In this document: in pieces, positions 12,448 to 29,838 of the stretch
Numbering within the stretch: position 1 is the stretch's first letter
Layout: each line of letters begins with the position of its first letter
Assembly (NCBI GenBank): GCA_013314855.1
Contig: JABUEW010000035.1
Coordinates: 1 to 35,246, forward strand
Direction: 5' to 3'
Source: Bacillota bacterium
Lineage (GTDB): Bacteria > Bacillota > Clostridia > Acetivibrionales > DUMC01
DNA length: 35,246 nt
Translations under genes and position numbers: made by a program
The notes under the pieces: generated by a model
The model's database searches: none
Seen by the model: the letters and a program-made list of their open reading frames with translations, nothing else
What the model was told of the DNA's origin: nothing

Positions 12448-13851
12448 ATGGATAAATTAAAAACAGGCATAAAGAATCTCGATGGTATTCTTAATGGCGG
12501 CATACCTGTGTATTCGCTTAATATCGTTTCCGGCTCCCCGGGCAGCGGAAAAACGATATTTGTTCAAAACATTATTTTTAATAGCGCAAGGAGTGGCCTT
12601 AAAAGTTTATATCTGACCACTATATCTGAATCACAATTCAAGATGGTAAGGCATTTGCAGGAGTTTGAGTTTTTTTCGGACGATTTCCTGGGGGACAAGT
12701 TTATTTATGGTGATCTGGGAGATGTCCTGCGCAAACAGGGAACGGACAAGGTTCTGGGATACCTGACCGAAATGATTAAAAGACATCAACCGAATATAGT
12801 TGTAATAGACAGTTTTAAGGCCATAAGAGACATCTTTCCGGACGAGAAAACTTTTAAGGCTTTTGTTTTTGATCTGGCTGCTGCTTTATCGATATGGGAG
12901 GTTACCGTGTTTCTCATAGGCGAGTATGAAGAAAAAGAACTCACTCTCTTAAGTGAATTTGCCATTGCCGATGGGATTTTTCACCTTTACGGGCAGGAAG
13001 AAAAACGGTTTCAAAAAAGGTATTTGCGTATTCTTAAGATGAGGGGAACCAATTTTGAACAGGGAGAGCACTTGTTTCAAATTAGCTCTGCGGGAATAGA
13101 AGTGTATCCGAGGATAAAACCGGAAGGTAAAAAACTCCAGTATGAGGTCAGGTCGAGGAGAAAAGGATTCGGAATCACGGGCTTGGACGAAATGCTGAGT
13201 GGTGGGATAACAGAAGGAACAATTACTCTTATTTCCGGCGGTACAGGTACGGGCAAAACCGTGTTTGCTCTTAAATTCTTACTGGATGGGGCTGAAAAAG
13301 GAGAAAAGGGACTATTCCTTTCTTTTGAAGAGCCTGTTACTCAACTTATAGATAACGCCCGTTGTCTGGGATGGGAGCTGGATAGATATCTGGCAGACGG
13401 CCGTCTAAATATCAAATTTATTTCTCCAATAGAGTTGGACGTAGACAAGCACGCTTTTGAAATACTGGACATGGTCAATAAAAATAAGGTGGAGAGGTTT
13501 GTTATCGACAGCATATCTTCTTTTGAAAGCAGCGTTTCTGATATACAAAAATATAAAGATTATCTGTGGGCGATAGGACAGCAGCTCAAAAGGAGGCATA
13601 TTACTACTATATTTACCGTACTAAACGAAGACCTCTTTTCACCGGTAGTAGTAACTAAAGCTCAAATATCCTTAATGACAGATAATATAATCATTCTGCG
13701 CTACGTGGAAGATAATTCAAGCGTTAAAAAAGTTCTTGGAATCCTTAAAACCCGTGGAATCAACCACGACAGAGACATTAGAGAATATGAGATTACCCCG
13801 AACGGAATAAATGTTCTCGGAAAGTTAGACAAAGCAAATATGTTGAGATGA
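12448..13851 (+). CDS. KaiC-like two-domain RecA-family ATPase
   Basis: The protein has 467 residues with two KaiC domains. Domain 1 (about 1-225) has Walker A GSPGSGKT at 29-36. Domain 2 (about 232-460) begins GITGLDEMLSGGITEGTITL and has Walker A GGTGTGKT ending at T271. Domain 2 keeps the catalytic glutamate pair (LFLSFEEP) seen in KaiC; domain 1 has TTISESQ at the same place, so the pair is not conserved there. Cyanobacterial KaiC has 519 residues; this one is shorter and no kaiA or kaiB lies nearby, so clock function is not implied. KaiC-like proteins outside cyanobacteria act in stress or signalling switches. AGGAGG precedes ATG 12448. Confidence 0.88.
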   Translation: MDKLKTGIKNLDGILNGGIPVYSLNIVSGSPGSGKTIFVQNIIFNSARSGLKSLYLTTISESQFKMVRHLQEFEFFSDDFLGDKFIYGDLGDVLRKQGTDKVLGYLTEMIKRHQPNIVVIDSFKAIRDIFPDEKTFKAFVFDLAAALSIWEVTVFLIGEYEEKELTLLSEFAIADGIFHLYGQEEKRFQKRYLRILKMRGTNFEQGEHLFQISSAGIEVYPRIKPEGKKLQYEVRSRRKGFGITGLDEMLSGGITEGTITLISGGTGTGKTVFALKFLLDGAEKGEKGLFLSFEEPVTQLIDNARCLGWELDRYLADGRLNIKFISPIELDVDKHAFEILDMVNKNKVERFVIDSISSFESSVSDIQKYKDYLWAIGQQLKRRHITTIFTVLNEDLFSPVVVTKAQISLMTDNIIILRYVEDNSSVKKVLGILKTRGINHDRDIREYEITPNGINVLGKLDKANMLR

Positions 13852-16057: not shown

Positions 16058-16083
16058 AAAGTATAAAAAACAGGTGTATTATT

Positions 16084-19000
16084 ATGTTTATAGCTGATTT
16101 TCATATACATTCAAAATACTCAAGAGCTACAAGCAGGGATTGTGTACCTGAAGTGCTTGAATTTTGGGCACGGCGTAAAGGGATTGGCGTTATTGGTACG
16201 GGTGATTTCACCCATCCTGCCTGGCGTGAGGAATTAAAGGAGAAGCTTGTTCCCTCAGGAGAAGGACTTTATGTTCTTAAGAATGATTTCCGCAAAGAGG
16301 ATAAAGTTGCAGGAGCAGATTTCAAGCCTCGATTTGTTGTTTCTGGTGAAATCAGCTCAATATACAAAAAGAACGGAAGGATAAGAAAGGTTCACAACCT
16401 GATACTTCTACCCAGCCTGGAACATGCTGAATTAATATCACGCAGGCTTGAGGCCATAGGCAATTTGCGGTCTGACGGCAGGCCGATATTGGGCCTTGAC
16501 AGCAGGGATTTGCTTGAGATAGTACTTGATATGTGCTCGGAGGCTATATTTATACCTGCTCACATATGGACGCCGCATTTCTCCCTGTACGGTGCATATT
16601 CCGGTTTTGACGACATCATGGAGTGCTTCGAGGACCTCACAGGCTATGTATATGCACTCGAAACAGGCCTTTCCTCAGACCCTCCAATGAATTGGCGCCT
16701 TTCTGCACTGGATGACTTTACGCTGGTTTCCAACTCGGATGCACATTCCCCGGCAAACCTGGGAAGAGAGGCAAACATTTTCGATACAGGACTTTCTTAT
16801 CAGTGCATGTTGAAGGCGTTAAAAAACCGCAGTACAAAGGAGTTCCATGGTACAATAGAGTTTTTTCCGGAGGAAGGCAAATACCACTATGACGGGCACA
16901 GGGCATGCAAGGTGTGCTGGAAGCCTTCGGATACAAAAGCTGCGGGAGGCATATGCCCTGTATGCGGCGGCAGGATTACAGTCGGAGTGCTTCACCGGGT
17001 TGAAGTCCTTGCAGACAGGGAAGAGGGGTTCGTGCCACCGGTGGCAAAGCATTTTGAAAGCCTTGTTCCTCTTTATGAGGTAATAGCTTCCTCGATAGGT
17101 TCTGCTGTTACCGGTACGAAGGTGAAGGAAAAGTACGATGACCTGATACGGAGCCTCGGACCGGAGTTATTTATACTCCGTGAGGCACCGCTGAAAGATA
17201 TTGAATTGGTGGCAGGCCCATGTATAGCTGAAGGCATCCGCAGGCTGAGATGCGGCAAGGTCGAAATACAACCTGGGTTTGATGGAGAATACGGTAGAAT
17301 TAAAATAATAGACAAAAGTGAAATAGACATGCTTTCAGGCCAGCTATGCTTTATTGATGATAAAAGTACTTGTATTAAAAAACCATCGATACCTAAAACT
17401 ATTCAGGACATAAAGGTTTCGGCTAATGAAGCGGAATCGGCGCCGGTTTTAGTTGATGCCTGTCCGTCAAACGATAGTGAGTACCCTATGAAAGCTGTTT
17501 CCTCAAACATTCTCTATGGATTGAACGAAGAGCAGTGGGAAGCTGTTTCGTCCCCCAGCCCGGCAATTGCGGTAATTGCAGGTCCTGGAACCGGAAAAAC
17601 AAAAACACTGGTATGCCGTATTGCTTACCTTGTTGAAAAATGCGGTATACATCCCTCGCAGATAACTGCCGTTACTTTTACAAATAAGGCTGCAAATGAG
17701 ATGCGCATCCGTCTGGAGAAGCATTTCGGGGACAAGCGGACAGCAGGTGCAATGACAATAGGGACATTCCACTCTATATGCCTTCAGATTTTGTCCAAAT
17801 GGAGGGGCAAGAATAACATAACTATTATTGATGAATATAATGCCGTTTCAATAATCGAGGAAATATTAAAGGATATGAAATTGGAGATTTCTCCTCGAGA
17901 TGTCATGAGAGGGATATCGCTGATTAAAAACGGTGCATCCCCGGTGGGAGATAAGAAAAAATCCGATATCCCAGCCATTGTATACGATTTATACTGCTCG
18001 CAGCTTAAGCGTTACGGTGTAATGGACTATGACGATATCCTCCTCGAAGTACTTCACCAGTTTGAGTGTAGAAACATAGGGGATATATCAGACAGAAGCC
18101 TGGAAAACTCTTTCTCGTACCTGCTGGTGGATGAGTTCCAGGATATAAACGAGATTCAATACCGCTTGATAAAAGAATGGGGCAGGAAAAGCGAGAGCAT
18201 TTTTATTATAGGTGACCCTGACCAGTCGATTTATGGTTTCAGGGGTTCGGATTTCCGCTATTTTGAAAGGTTTATAGAGGATTTCCCCGGTATCCACCAC
18301 GTCCGGTTGACTCAGAATTACCGTTCAACACCCGAGATAATCGCTTCCGCCAAATCGGTAATCTCAAAGAAATCTGCAGGGGGGCGTACATGTTCCCTCG
18401 ACGCAAAAAGAGAAAGCGGCACCAAAGTACGTTTTATAAAAACCAACGATGAATTTTCGGAGGCGCTGTTTGTTGCAAAGGAAATAAACCGTATGGTTGG
18501 CGGTATCGATATGCTTGATACACAGATACTGTCAGCACCCAACAGAAAAAGGCCTGCGGCAAAACACCCAAGAGGCTTTTCTGATATTGCCATATTATAC
18601 CGCACCAATCGTCAGGCGGAAATTCTGGAGCAGTGCTTTTTAAAAGAAGGTATCCAGTATGTAGTCGTCGGGCGGGACGAGTTCCTTTCAGATAAGTTGG
18701 TCCGTGAGGCGATTGCGTTTTTCAGGTTTTTGCTCAACCCCGGGGATATCGCTTCACTATTGGTATGTCTTAAAGCAGAAAGCATATATTCGGCAGACCT
18801 GAACCAAAAAGTCCTAGAAAGTTACGTTGCAGGTGAGAAAAGCGTATCATCCCTCGCAAGGATCATGGAAGGGATTCAGCTGCCGCTGCAAAAATTAGGC
18901 AAATCCCGGAATTTCATAGAAATGTTGAGGAAATATCAACCTATCATTAATAAAGAAAAGCCGTGGAAGATTATAGATTCCTGGATTAACGACAACAGTC

Positions 19001-19434
19001 TGTCAGGTATAAGGTGCATGGAACTGCTTTTAAATACGTCTGTTATGTATAACAAAATGTCTTCCTTTATTCAAAACCTTGTGTTGGGTCGCGAAAGTGA
19101 TGTTGTACGCAGCGGTAGCAAGGTTTATTCTCCGGATGCGGTTCAGTTAATGACCATGCATGCGGCAAAAGGCCTTGAATTTCCCATAGTGTTTATTTGC
19201 GGCGTAAACGATGGCATAATTCCTTTAAAGAACAGCAACCCAGGCTTTGATATTGACGAGGAGAGACGGCTTTTCTATGTCGGGATGACAAGGGCACGGG
19301 ATGAGCTTATACTTCTGACATCCCGTACCCCATCTCCTTTTATTGCAGACATATCTGAAGAGCAACTTATAAGAGAGAATGCTTTTACGCAAAAGCAAGT
19401 GCCTCAATACAAGCAAGCAAGCCTTTTTGACTAA
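16084..19434 (+). CDS. Endonuclease Q-like PHP nuclease fused to a UvrD-type helicase
   Basis: The protein has 1116 residues. The N-terminal part (1-about 425) is a PHP nuclease of the EndoQ type: metal ligands DFHIHSKYS at 5-13, GTGDFTHP near 39, PAHIWTP near 159, NSDAHSP at 217-223, then a zinc finger with C275, C278, C291 and C294. EndoQ of Thermococcales nicks DNA 5' of deaminated bases and abasic sites. The C-terminal part (about 475-1116) is an SF1A helicase: NEEQWEAV (Q motif), GPGTGKT at 500-506, LLVDEFQD ending at D687, GDPDQSIYGFRG, LTQNYRS, TMHAAKGLEFP and FYVGMTRARDEL, so all motifs are intact. A nick-and-unwind repair enzyme is the likely role (inference). It ends 35 bp from the convergent asnB. 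Confidence 0.9.
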   Translation: MFIADFHIHSKYSRATSRDCVPEVLEFWARRKGIGVIGTGDFTHPAWREELKEKLVPSGEGLYVLKNDFRKEDKVAGADFKPRFVVSGEISSIYKKNGRIRKVHNLILLPSLEHAELISRRLEAIGNLRSDGRPILGLDSRDLLEIVLDMCSEAIFIPAHIWTPHFSLYGAYSGFDDIMECFEDLTGYVYALETGLSSDPPMNWRLSALDDFTLVSNSDAHSPANLGREANIFDTGLSYQCMLKALKNRSTKEFHGTIEFFPEEGKYHYDGHRACKVCWKPSDTKAAGGICPVCGGRITVGVLHRVEVLADREEGFVPPVAKHFESLVPLYEVIASSIGSAVTGTKVKEKYDDLIRSLGPELFILREAPLKDIELVAGPCIAEGIRRLRCGKVEIQPGFDGEYGRIKIIDKSEIDMLSGQLCFIDDKSTCIKKPSIPKTIQDIKVSANEAESAPVLVDACPSNDSEYPMKAVSSNILYGLNEEQWEAVSSPSPAIAVIAGPGTGKTKTLVCRIAYLVEKCGIHPSQITAVTFTNKAANEMRIRLEKHFGDKRTAGAMTIGTFHSICLQILSKWRGKNNITIIDEYNAVSIIEEILKDMKLEISPRDVMRGISLIKNGASPVGDKKKSDIPAIVYDLYCSQLKRYGVMDYDDILLEVLHQFECRNIGDISDRSLENSFSYLLVDEFQDINEIQYRLIKEWGRKSESIFIIGDPDQSIYGFRGSDFRYFERFIEDFPGIHHVRLTQNYRSTPEIIASAKSVISKKSAGGRTCSLDAKRESGTKVRFIKTNDEFSEALFVAKEINRMVGGIDMLDTQILSAPNRKRPAAKHPRGFSDIAILYRTNRQAEILEQCFLKEGIQYVVVGRDEFLSDKLVREAIAFFRFLLNPGDIASLLVCLKAESIYSADLNQKVLESYVAGEKSVSSLARIMEGIQLPLQKLGKSRNFIEMLRKYQPIINKEKPWKIIDSWINDNSLSGIRCMELLLNTSVMYNKMSSFIQNLVLGRESDVVRSGSKVYSPDAVQLMTMHAAKGLEFPIVFICGVNDGIIPLKNSNPGFDIDEERRLFYVGMTRARDELILLTSRTPSPFIADISEEQLIRENAFTQKQVPQYKQASLFD

Positions 19435-28002: not shown

Positions 28003-28761
28003 TTATGATTCAAAGACCTCTTTGAGTGGTGCCTCCAGATCTTCAAACCAATAGGATTTTATAACTTCGCTGTTTTTATACGTTATGAATGAATCAATCT
28101 GAAAATCTTTAAAACCGTAAACCAGGACTGTTTTCCCTTGGGGGTCTACCACCCAGAATTCCTTTACGCCCGACAGCATATAAGTATTCAATTTATCTAC
28201 CATGTCTTTAGACCTGGTATCGGGCGACAATATTTCAACAACCAGTGTGGGTGTTCCCATATACCGCCCCTTTTCGTTCACTGTATGTTCCAGGTCACAG
28301 GCAATAAGCAAATCAGGCTGCATCACATCTGGCTCTTTAAAACCTTTTTTGTAAAAATGCACATCAAAAGGTGAATAGAATACTTTACACGGCTTTCCCT
28401 TCAGATAATTTCTTAATAAGACATGTAGATTGCCTGAAATATTCTGATGATAGGTACTTGGAGACGACAACAGGACAATCTCTCCATTAATGTACTCCAT
28501 ACGCAGATCGCTTTTTTCATAGATTGCCATGAATTCTTCATAGGATACCTTTTTTCCACCGTACTGATAATCCAAAGACCTTTCCAGTACGGTAAAATAC
28601 CGCTCAATATCGGTAATATACGGTGTCATGCGAATTATTTTCTTGCCGTTTTTTGTGATAACCACTTCATTATCATTACATACATAATCTAAATATTTTC
28701 CAAGGTTGGACTTTAATTCTGTGGCTGTGATCACCAATTTATTTTCATTTTCCATATTCAC
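28003..28761 (-). CDS. Phd/YefM antitoxin-like domain fused to Uma2 (PD-(D/E)XK) domain, copy 1
   Basis: The protein has 252 residues. Residues 8-55 match the Phd/YefM fold (VITATELKSNLGKYLDYV, VVITKNGKKIIRM), which normally binds operator DNA and neutralises a toxin. Residues 75-250 are a Uma2 domain (DUF820) with Glu89 in MEYINGEI, His105, the PD motif ending at Asp150, Glu176 in VVEILSPDTR and Lys190, consistent with a PD-(D/E)XK nuclease site. Uma2 proteins are abundant but poorly characterised. ATG 28761 has GAGGCGGTG upstream. It resembles the gene at 29068-29808 along its whole length. Three ATCGTA motifs around its promoter suggest self-regulation by the N-terminal domain (inference). 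Confidence 0.85.
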   Translation of the reverse strand: MNMENENKLVITATELKSNLGKYLDYVCNDNEVVITKNGKKIIRMTPYITDIERYFTVLERSLDYQYGGKKVSYEEFMAIYEKSDLRMEYINGEIVLLSSPSTYHQNISGNLHVLLRNYLKGKPCKVFYSPFDVHFYKKGFKEPDVMQPDLLIACDLEHTVNEKGRYMGTPTLVVEILSPDTRSKDMVDKLNTYMLSGVKEFWVVDPQGKTVLVYGFKDFQIDSFITYKNSEVIKSYWFEDLEAPLKEVFES

Positions 28762-29067: not shown

Positions 29068-29808
29068 TTATATTGAAAAAACATCATCAAGATTGGCTGT
29101 TAATCCCTTAAATACTATTGACTCTGCGGATTCGCCGATTTTCCAGGTGCGCGTCTCGGAAATTTCATTGTTCTCAAATAAATATAAATGGATTTCCTTG
29201 TTAAAAGTGTTAATAATCCAGTATTCTTTTACACCACTGCTCATATACAAATTCAATTTTAACACCATATCTCTGCTTCTCGTTGCTTTAGATAGGATTT
29301 CAACAATAAGTGAAGGTGTGCCAATATATCTGTCTTTTTCATCAAGCATTTCTTCCGGATTACATATGATCACGATATCTGGCTGTACGACGTTTTTATT
29401 ATCCTCATAATCTGTCAAAGTAATATCAAAAGGTGAAACCAGAGGGGTACAATTTTTCCCTTTAAACCAATTGCCAAAAATCAAGAATAAATTTGCTTGA
29501 ATTTTTTGATGAGTGTAACTTGGTGAAGCCATTAAATAAATTTGTCCATTTATAAACTCGTAATGTTTATCAGATGCATCTTTCATTTTTAGAAAATCTT
29601 CGTATGAGGTTTTTGTATTTCCACTATGATATTCAAGGCTTTTTTCACAAACGACTCCTTCCTTATACAAATTAGTAAGCAACTCTTCATTATATTTGAC
29701 CAGCATAGCTATATTTTTACCATTACTGGACACAATAACTTCTTCAATTTTACATAGTTTGAGGTATTTATCGAAATTGTTTTGCAATTCTGTTGGATTT
29801 ACTACCAT
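29068..29808 (-). CDS. Phd-like domain fused to Uma2 domain, copy 2
   Basis: ATG 29808 with GGAG about 10 nt ahead is chosen over GTG 29817, which lies next to the ribosome site. The product has 246 residues: a shortened Phd-like part (about 1-45, VNPTELQNNFDKYLKLCKIE, VIVSSNGKNIAML) and a Uma2 part with Glu84 in YEFINGQI, His100, PD ending at Asp144, Glu170 in IVEILSKATR and Lys184. It is clearly paralogous to the gene at 28003-28761 but well diverged, so the duplication is not recent or the two arrived separately. The catalytic set is intact. No separate toxin gene is adjacent to either copy. Confidence 0.83.
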   Translation of the reverse strand: MVVNPTELQNNFDKYLKLCKIEEVIVSSNGKNIAMLVKYNEELLTNLYKEGVVCEKSLEYHSGNTKTSYEDFLKMKDASDKHYEFINGQIYLMASPSYTHQKIQANLFLIFGNWFKGKNCTPLVSPFDITLTDYEDNKNVVQPDIVIICNPEEMLDEKDRYIGTPSLIVEILSKATRSRDMVLKLNLYMSSGVKEYWIINTFNKEIHLYLFENNEISETRTWKIGESAESIVFKGLTANLDDVFSI

Positions 29809-29838
29809 ATAAATCACACTCCAAATACTTAATTTTAT

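Follow-up and report, generated by a model that had tools for sequence, protein, structure and literature searches.

A 35,246-nucleotide stretch of contig JABUEW010000035.1 from a Bacillota bacterium (Clostridia; Acetivibrionales; DUMC01), called the window here, carries a gene that joins an endonuclease Q (EndoQ)-like PHP nuclease to a UvrD-type helicase. An initial annotation had read both enzymes in one polypeptide, and the open reading frame (ORF), the family matches and both predicted folds agree with this (Table 1). The PfuEndoQ structure entry 5zb8 matches residues 4–410 (E 2.4e-45), and the family model TIGR00375 aligns over its full length with residues 4–406 (E 1.7e-53), scoring 182.3 bits. 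Since this lies under the curated cut-off of 326.6 bits, which was reached in none of 245 genomes of the class, the nuclease half is called EndoQ-like here and not a TIGR00375 member. The C-terminal part matches PcrA (1pjr, E 3e-80), with the PcrA/UvrD match spanning residues 477–1092, and the Pfam models UvrD-helicase (218.1 bits, E 2.3e-64, cut-off 23) and UvrD_C (166.3 bits, E 1.7e-48, cut-off 25.6). For both halves the matches are far outside what chance would give. The PcrA equivalog model TIGR01073 scores 386.3 bits against a cut-off of 911.2 and is covered only from position 2 to 633 of its 725 positions, so that the description of the helicase as complete holds for the motor core with its motifs and not for the C-terminal part of PcrA. 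Scans with Pfam and family models found no strand-removing or resynthesising domain in the fused protein.

The predicted structure was compared with EndoQ and with PcrA/UvrD, as had been proposed at the outset. An AlphaFold2 model made with 54 family members has a mean predicted local distance difference test score (pLDDT) of 82.7 and a predicted template modelling score (pTM) of 0.57. It consists of two confident bodies, with a stretch between them (residues 420–474) where pLDDT is below 50, and because the pTM is low the mutual placement of the EndoQ and helicase bodies is not fixed by the model. Residues 1–417 superpose on EndoQ with deoxyuridine-containing DNA (7k30; Z score 42.0, root-mean-square deviation (rmsd) 2.6, 379 residues) and residues 475–1103 on D. 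radiodurans UvrD (4c2t; Z score 44.5, rmsd 4.7, 588 residues). Foldseek is in agreement with both superpositions.

Table 1. The EndoQ–UvrD fusion gene, its modules and its short motifs, in window coordinates.
Feature	Position	Strand	Remarks
EndoQ–UvrD fusion gene, 1116 amino acids	16084..19434	+	ATG start, uninterrupted ORF
Shine-Dalgarno-like AGGTG, 5' of the fusion gene	16072-16076		found by eye
EndoQ-like module, residues 1–417	16084..17334	+	PHP nuclease, C4 zinc-binding domain, C-terminal helical domain
Linker, residues 418–474	17335..17505	+	predicted disordered (pLDDT ~30 over 421–470)
Linker clamp-type motif QLCFI, residues 420–424	17341..17355	+	degenerate in the window
UvrD/PcrA-type superfamily 1A (SF1A) helicase module, residues 475–1103	17506..19392	+	motifs intact
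C-terminal clamp-type motif QASLF, residues 1111–1115	19414..19428	+	

According to a review, the active-site zinc of PfuEndoQ is bound by E76, H84 and H139, and replacing any of these with alanine abolishes cutting; H139, together with G169 and S171, keeps normal T and A out (PMC8307549; this and the other papers are cited from excerpts). Substitutions of metal ligands or base-recognition residues were looked for in an alignment of 91 rows, comprising 86 fused proteins and, of the fused type, three split and two stand-alone copies. Only the first 450 residues of each fused row were used, so that three rows with N-terminal extensions (L107, L122, L127) lack the last positions, about 398–404, where counts are therefore low. 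The five residues named in that review, which correspond to E89, H104, H160, G195 and S197 of the window protein, are kept in all 91 rows; for these five, the substitutions that would have refuted the initial reading are absent. The motifs H7-I8-H9 and S218-D219-A220-H221 and the cysteines C275, C278, C291 and C294 lie exactly where the initial annotation had placed them. It can be seen from the alignment that H7 and H9 (Pfu H8/H10), E89, H104, H160, D219 and H221 (Pfu D193 and H195) are invariant in the 86 fused rows, as are D219 and H221 when the split and stand-alone copies are included (91/91); Pfu D193, with which D219 aligns, is an asparagine in the sequences of 7k30–7k33. C275, C291 and C294 are present in 86 of the 86 fused rows and C278 in 79, the window among them. 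In the helicase half, 33 positions from motifs I, Ia, II, III, IV, V and VI were checked, and each is conserved in 80–86 of the 86 rows. Identity to the window across 77 fused loci from named genomes is 61–90% for the EndoQ half and 37–78% for the helicase half; this higher conservation suggests that selection on the nuclease is strong.

These 77 loci were obtained by searching named genomes for the EndoQ half, which gave at least 591 confirmed relatives, the best 80 loci being analysed. One ORF holds both halves in 77 of the 80, which is the outcome of the survey of EndoQ plus UvrD architectures that the initial annotation had called for; among the 77, two run off their contig (L086, L088) and one ends early (L126). 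As far as they are annotated, the best 80 loci are all from Bacillota (Lachnospiraceae, Oscillospiraceae, Christensenella, Moorella, Peptococcaceae and others), and the carriers include the culturable Flavonifractor plautii, Christensenella intestinihominis, Eisenbergiella tayi and Moorella stamsii. Twelve of the 245 class genomes have ORFs of 1070–1170 amino acids that start with a fused-type EndoQ, and the helicase was read in 12 of 12; in the same set one further copy lies on a short contig (G085) and another stands alone (G290). By a hand count at E <1e-80 to the profile, a fused-type EndoQ is present in 60 of 398 genomes of the phylum, and EndoQ of this type is accordingly widespread in bacteria. 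ORFs of at least 980 amino acids account for 46 of the 60, ORFs of only 424–519 amino acids for nine, and pieces apparently cut by contig ends for five, with a sixth piece (G450, E 6.6e-38) excluded from the count. The helicase was in frame in all 27 of the 46 long ORFs that were read. Recurrence of the fusion across named loci, class genomes and phylum genomes rules out an assembly chimera. The split cases examined give no convincing example of natural gene fission: the halves of L098 share a frame with a stop between them, and L062 and L120 change frame near the helicase start, so that an error in sequencing or decay would explain these loci equally well, while L100 simply runs off its contig. 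Four genomes (G292, G561, G584, G605) have a long fused-type ORF together with a second, stand-alone EndoQ of the same subfamily, and in two of these, G584 and G292, both copies are on one contig within about 12 kb.

Around the organism of the window the fusion gene is patchy. Among 60 related genomes, the window's included, two have the full fusion (G000, G026), one a frame-broken copy (G030), one EndoQ alone (G009) and one fragments (G059), and the only same-genus and the only same-family genome compared have no fused-type EndoQ among the matches listed. A copy from Propionispora clusters with Peptococcaceae copies in the trees, and some horizontal transfer of the fusion gene is likely. The EndoQ tree (63 rows, midpoint-rooted) separates the 22 ordinary stand-alone EndoQs, as one clade (support 100/99), from the fused rows, which make up a second (100/99) on a long internal branch of 4.64 changes per site and have split and stand-alone copies of the fused type scattered among them; the PfuEndoQ branch is very long and its placement unsure. 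A quick search likewise placed 18 fused helicase halves in one clade apart from 14 PcrA-like rows (Shimodaira–Hasegawa approximate likelihood ratio test 100). Because the helicase halves form one clade and the stand-alone and split EndoQs are nested within the fused clade, the simplest history would be that EndoQ and helicase were joined once, early, with a few later losses of the helicase. The fused protein represents a separate, helicase-fused and probably clamp-docked subfamily of EndoQ, built of component parts that were already known.

Clamp docking is predicted from short motifs, which the initial annotation had passed over, as it had the breadth and patchiness of the family. The bacterial clamp-binding motif is QL[S/D]LF or QxxLF and lies at the C-terminus in PolC (PMC12309361), and archaeal EndoQ has a C-terminal PCNA-interacting peptide (PIP) box, through which PCNA binds and stimulates the enzyme (PMC4858679). 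The window protein ends in KQASLFD, with the motif residues at pLDDT below 50, as in an accessible tail. Tails of the fused proteins are poorly conserved save for this motif (typically KQLSLF, RQMSLFD or EQLSLF), in which Q1111 is kept in 85 and F1115 in 83 of the 86 rows. Within the last 30 residues of 83 distinct fused proteins, a relaxed pattern, Qxx[LMIF][FLMY], was found in 82 (9.6% of shuffled tails) and a strict one, Q[LMI][SDTN][LMF][FL], in 60 (0.14% of shuffled tails). Neither occurs in the 21 readable tails of stand-alone EndoQs (that of the 22nd, L053, is masked) or in 26 PcrA-like tails. Another such motif (for example GQLSLF or GQMSLF) lies in the linker just after the EndoQ domain, where Q420 is kept in 86 of 86 rows; within 20 residues there, 73 of the 83 proteins match the relaxed and 49 the strict pattern, while the rest of the same proteins (86,734 residues) has 100 relaxed and five strict matches. 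These conserved motifs, specific to the fused form, were computed outright, as were the fusion, both folds and the intact catalytic residues. Given the motifs, the published clamp consensus and the archaeal PIP-box precedent, predicted clamp docking is the best-supported new proposal for the fused protein. Clamp-type motifs have also been reported at the C-terminus of some bacterial EndoQs (PMC4858679), and since the 21 readable clostridial stand-alone tails have none, this faintly hints that Bacillus EndoQ is closer to the fused type than they are. The tails of two stand-alone EndoQs of the fused type (L063, L076) lack the linker clamp-type motif.

EndoQ cuts leave a 3'-OH and a 5'-phosphate (PMC4357722), UvrD has 3'-5' polarity (PMC7776575, PMC11253446), and the UvrD of E. 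coli is guided during mismatch repair to a nick that a different enzyme has made (PMC8744996). On balance we favour, by a modest degree, a reading in which the fused protein combines a nickase specific for damage with a 3'-5' helicase and docks on the replication sliding clamp; its nicking activity, its substrate, clamp binding and the coupling of nick to unwinding are what we infer. The C-terminal QxSLF, aided in most relatives by the linker motif, would hook the protein to the β clamp on new or replicating DNA. A deaminated base, be it uracil, hypoxanthine or perhaps xanthine, or an abasic sugar would then be flipped out by the EndoQ module, which would cut the phosphodiester 5' of the lesion, so that the damaged nucleotide carries the 5'-phosphate and a 3'-OH is left on the other side of the nick. 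On its flexible linker of about 55 residues the helicase might load at this nick and track 3'-5' on the intact strand, peeling off the lesion-bearing 5' end as a flap; the 3'-OH would be left for a polymerase on the same clamp, and a flap nuclease and ligase would complete the repair. By analogy with clamp-guided mismatch repair, a fuller version can be put forward more tentatively, as something somewhat short of an even chance: an unrecognised clostridial one-polypeptide excision-repair machine with two clamp hooks, which would both incise at deaminated or abasic nucleotides and drive removal of the damaged strand, in parallel to glycosylase repair and coupled to replication.

We next consider the repair context. 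Uracil-DNA glycosylase (UDG) is encoded in all of the 53 genomes of the class that were checked, 17 of them with a fused-type EndoQ, 21 with an ordinary stand-alone EndoQ and 15 without EndoQ, and replacement of UDG by the fused protein is ruled out. The window's genome has UDG and also a separate PcrA-like helicase (G000:C51); with these, and with no strand-removing or resynthesis domain in the protein, the 'self-contained alternative route' of the initial annotation is not supported. Endonuclease V (EndoV) is absent from 52 of the 53 genomes, the window's included, whichever EndoQ they have or none, which leaves room for a hypoxanthine nickase; our guess is that hypoxanthine may be a more relevant target than uracil.

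Several observations weigh against a clamp-docked nickase-helicase for deaminated bases. Fused-type EndoQs occur with no helicase in the flank at L063, L076 (about 8 kb of flank), L167 and L188 (1.5 kb), and the EndoQ-type nuclease can therefore do without the motor. Presence of the fused gene is independent of UDG absence and EndoV absence is independent of EndoQ, so that these distributions give no sign of genetic substitution. The relaxed clamp pattern is loose, and the linker sequence of the window itself, QLCFI, fails even this pattern, as do nine others of the 83. Divergence of the nuclease is a further point. Measured against 22 stand-alone clostridial EndoQs and PfuEndoQ, 68 positions are near-invariant, of which 47 are kept and 21 altered across the fused subfamily, 11 of these being near-fixed as another residue (Pfu E78S, F89L, F141W, L168T, A177N, N234T, G236E, L237F, L241E, D281H and G374D). 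Several of the altered positions flank, by sequence position, the zinc-binding domain, which helps to shape the pocket of EndoQ (PMC8438529), and the specificity of the fused subfamily may for this reason differ from that of PfuEndoQ, whose substrate range cannot be assumed for a subfamily so diverged. No biochemical work on the fused subfamily was found.

The same divergence is the starting point of the strongest alternative, that the fused nickase-helicase has been retargeted to other lesions, be they oxidised pyrimidines, some adduct, or a signal of the mismatch or strand-mark kind, and acts under clamp guidance in a way resembling mismatch repair. The 21 altered positions of 68 and the internal branch of 4.64 changes per site are consistent with this, uracil is already covered by the UDG of 53 of 53 genomes, a nick followed by UvrD is the logic of mismatch repair (PMC8744996), and PfuEndoQ itself accepts oxidised pyrimidines (PMC8307549). 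However, H139, G169, S171 and the catalytic zinc ligands are all kept, which points to the same kind of base check, and we regard retargeting as unlikely, at perhaps the level of a serious minority view.

Phage defence is a considerably weaker candidate. The EndoQ half would here cut uracil-containing or modified phage DNA and the helicase open it, in a loosely Gabija-like manner. An antiviral role of bacterial EndoQ has been suggested (PMC8307549), the gene is patchy, with the same-genus and same-family genomes lacking such an EndoQ among the matches listed, and PADLOC models of GajB match the helicase half with a best E of 6.7e-74. However, the PcrA, Rep and UvrD models match more strongly, the likeness to GajB coming from the motor common to all, and a Pfam scan of 20 ORFs of the window, among them both neighbours of the fusion gene, showed no GajA-like partner. 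No neighbour recurs as an operon or defence-island partner, the commonest neighbour cluster being found at only seven of the 80 loci. Nor does the EndoQ half have a match in the phage and plasmid collections or a confirmed relative in viral contigs (49 pattern matches, none confirmed); of 410 plasmid matches to the whole protein, the 15 listed start at residue 425 or later and so cover the helicase only. The conserved clamp-type motifs point instead to host DNA metabolism, and an anti-phage function appears improbable. Least probable of all, and to our minds very doubtful, is that the EndoQ half has little nuclease activity and acts as an adaptor, structural or for binding, on what is mainly a clamp-targeted helicase serving forks or transcription conflicts: many EndoQ positions are indeed altered, and motor plus clamp motif could fill such a role alone, but the EndoQ half is the better conserved one (61–90% against 37–78%) and its catalytic residues are invariant, the opposite of a decaying nuclease. 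We conclude that the fused protein is probably an overlooked repair enzyme.

The surroundings of the gene were also searched. The exact SOS box GAACN4GTTC is absent from −250 to +150 of 86 fused genes, and promoter and terminator scans near the gene gave 8 and 3 hits as compared with 7.2 and 3.7 in shuffled sequence. In the window a Fic-domain gene precedes the fusion gene and an asparagine synthase gene faces it, with no obvious functional link. Elsewhere in the window are a KaiC-type ATPase gene (12448-13851, + strand), followed by one for a GGDEF protein that has a sensor domain of the PocR type, two neighbouring genes on the − strand (28003-28761 and 29068-29817), each with a Phd/YefM antitoxin-type N-terminus and a Uma2 nuclease-like domain, and a short ORF (1221-1598, + strand) with a match to the C-terminal portion of an IS1595-type transposase.

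According to the excerpts available, the steps that follow the EndoQ nick are proposed and not established, and use of EndoQ in bacteria has been described for few genera (PMC4357722, PMC8438529). A natural fusion names a partner for EndoQ, a UvrD-type motor, with the clamp as their meeting place. As it involves one gene and occurs in culturable clostridia, the pathway is directly testable, and at moderate temperature the fused enzyme may be a useful reagent with which to nick and open deaminated DNA.

No description of an EndoQ–helicase fusion was found in the portions seen of the open-licence literature, the closest papers (PMC7776575, PMC7690668, PMC8307549 and PMC11253446) among it, a scope that leaves subscription journals and database annotation outside. 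The initial annotation had introduced EndoQ as known from Thermococcales, which is correct but not the whole range, since its activity has also been published for Methanosarcina and Bacillus pumilus (PMC6202378). With the Endonuclease Q enzymes (PfuEndoQ, TkoEndoQ and those of M. acetivorans and B. pumilus) the fused protein shares the whole fold including the zinc domain, the zinc ligands and the base-filter residues, and its clamp-type motif just after the EndoQ domain stands at the place of the archaeal PIP box; it differs in being a helicase-fused, long-branched subfamily with 21 of 68 positions altered and a score under the TIGR00375 cut-off. The motor has the fold and motifs of the SF1A helicases PcrA, UvrD and Rep but forms a clade of its own, shares 34–38% identity with the best PcrA-like proteins found in related genomes and, unlike PcrA, ends in a clamp-type motif in place of the C-terminal RNA polymerase-binding part. 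A QLSLF/QxxLF-type motif in a disordered tail is a feature of the clamp clients PolC, MutS and MutL as well, whereas most fused proteins have two such motifs, for which binding is predicted. Gabija GajA–GajB, AddAB and AdnAB also pair a nuclease with a UvrD-type motor, but the fusion gene has no partner gene beside it. The nucleases of these systems have folds other than that of EndoQ, namely TOPRIM or RecB-like. Another parallel is FacAGT-EndoV of Ferroplasma, in which a deaminated-base endonuclease is likewise fused to another repair domain (PMC4357722), although there the nuclease is of another family, the partner is an alkyltransferase, and no helicase is present.

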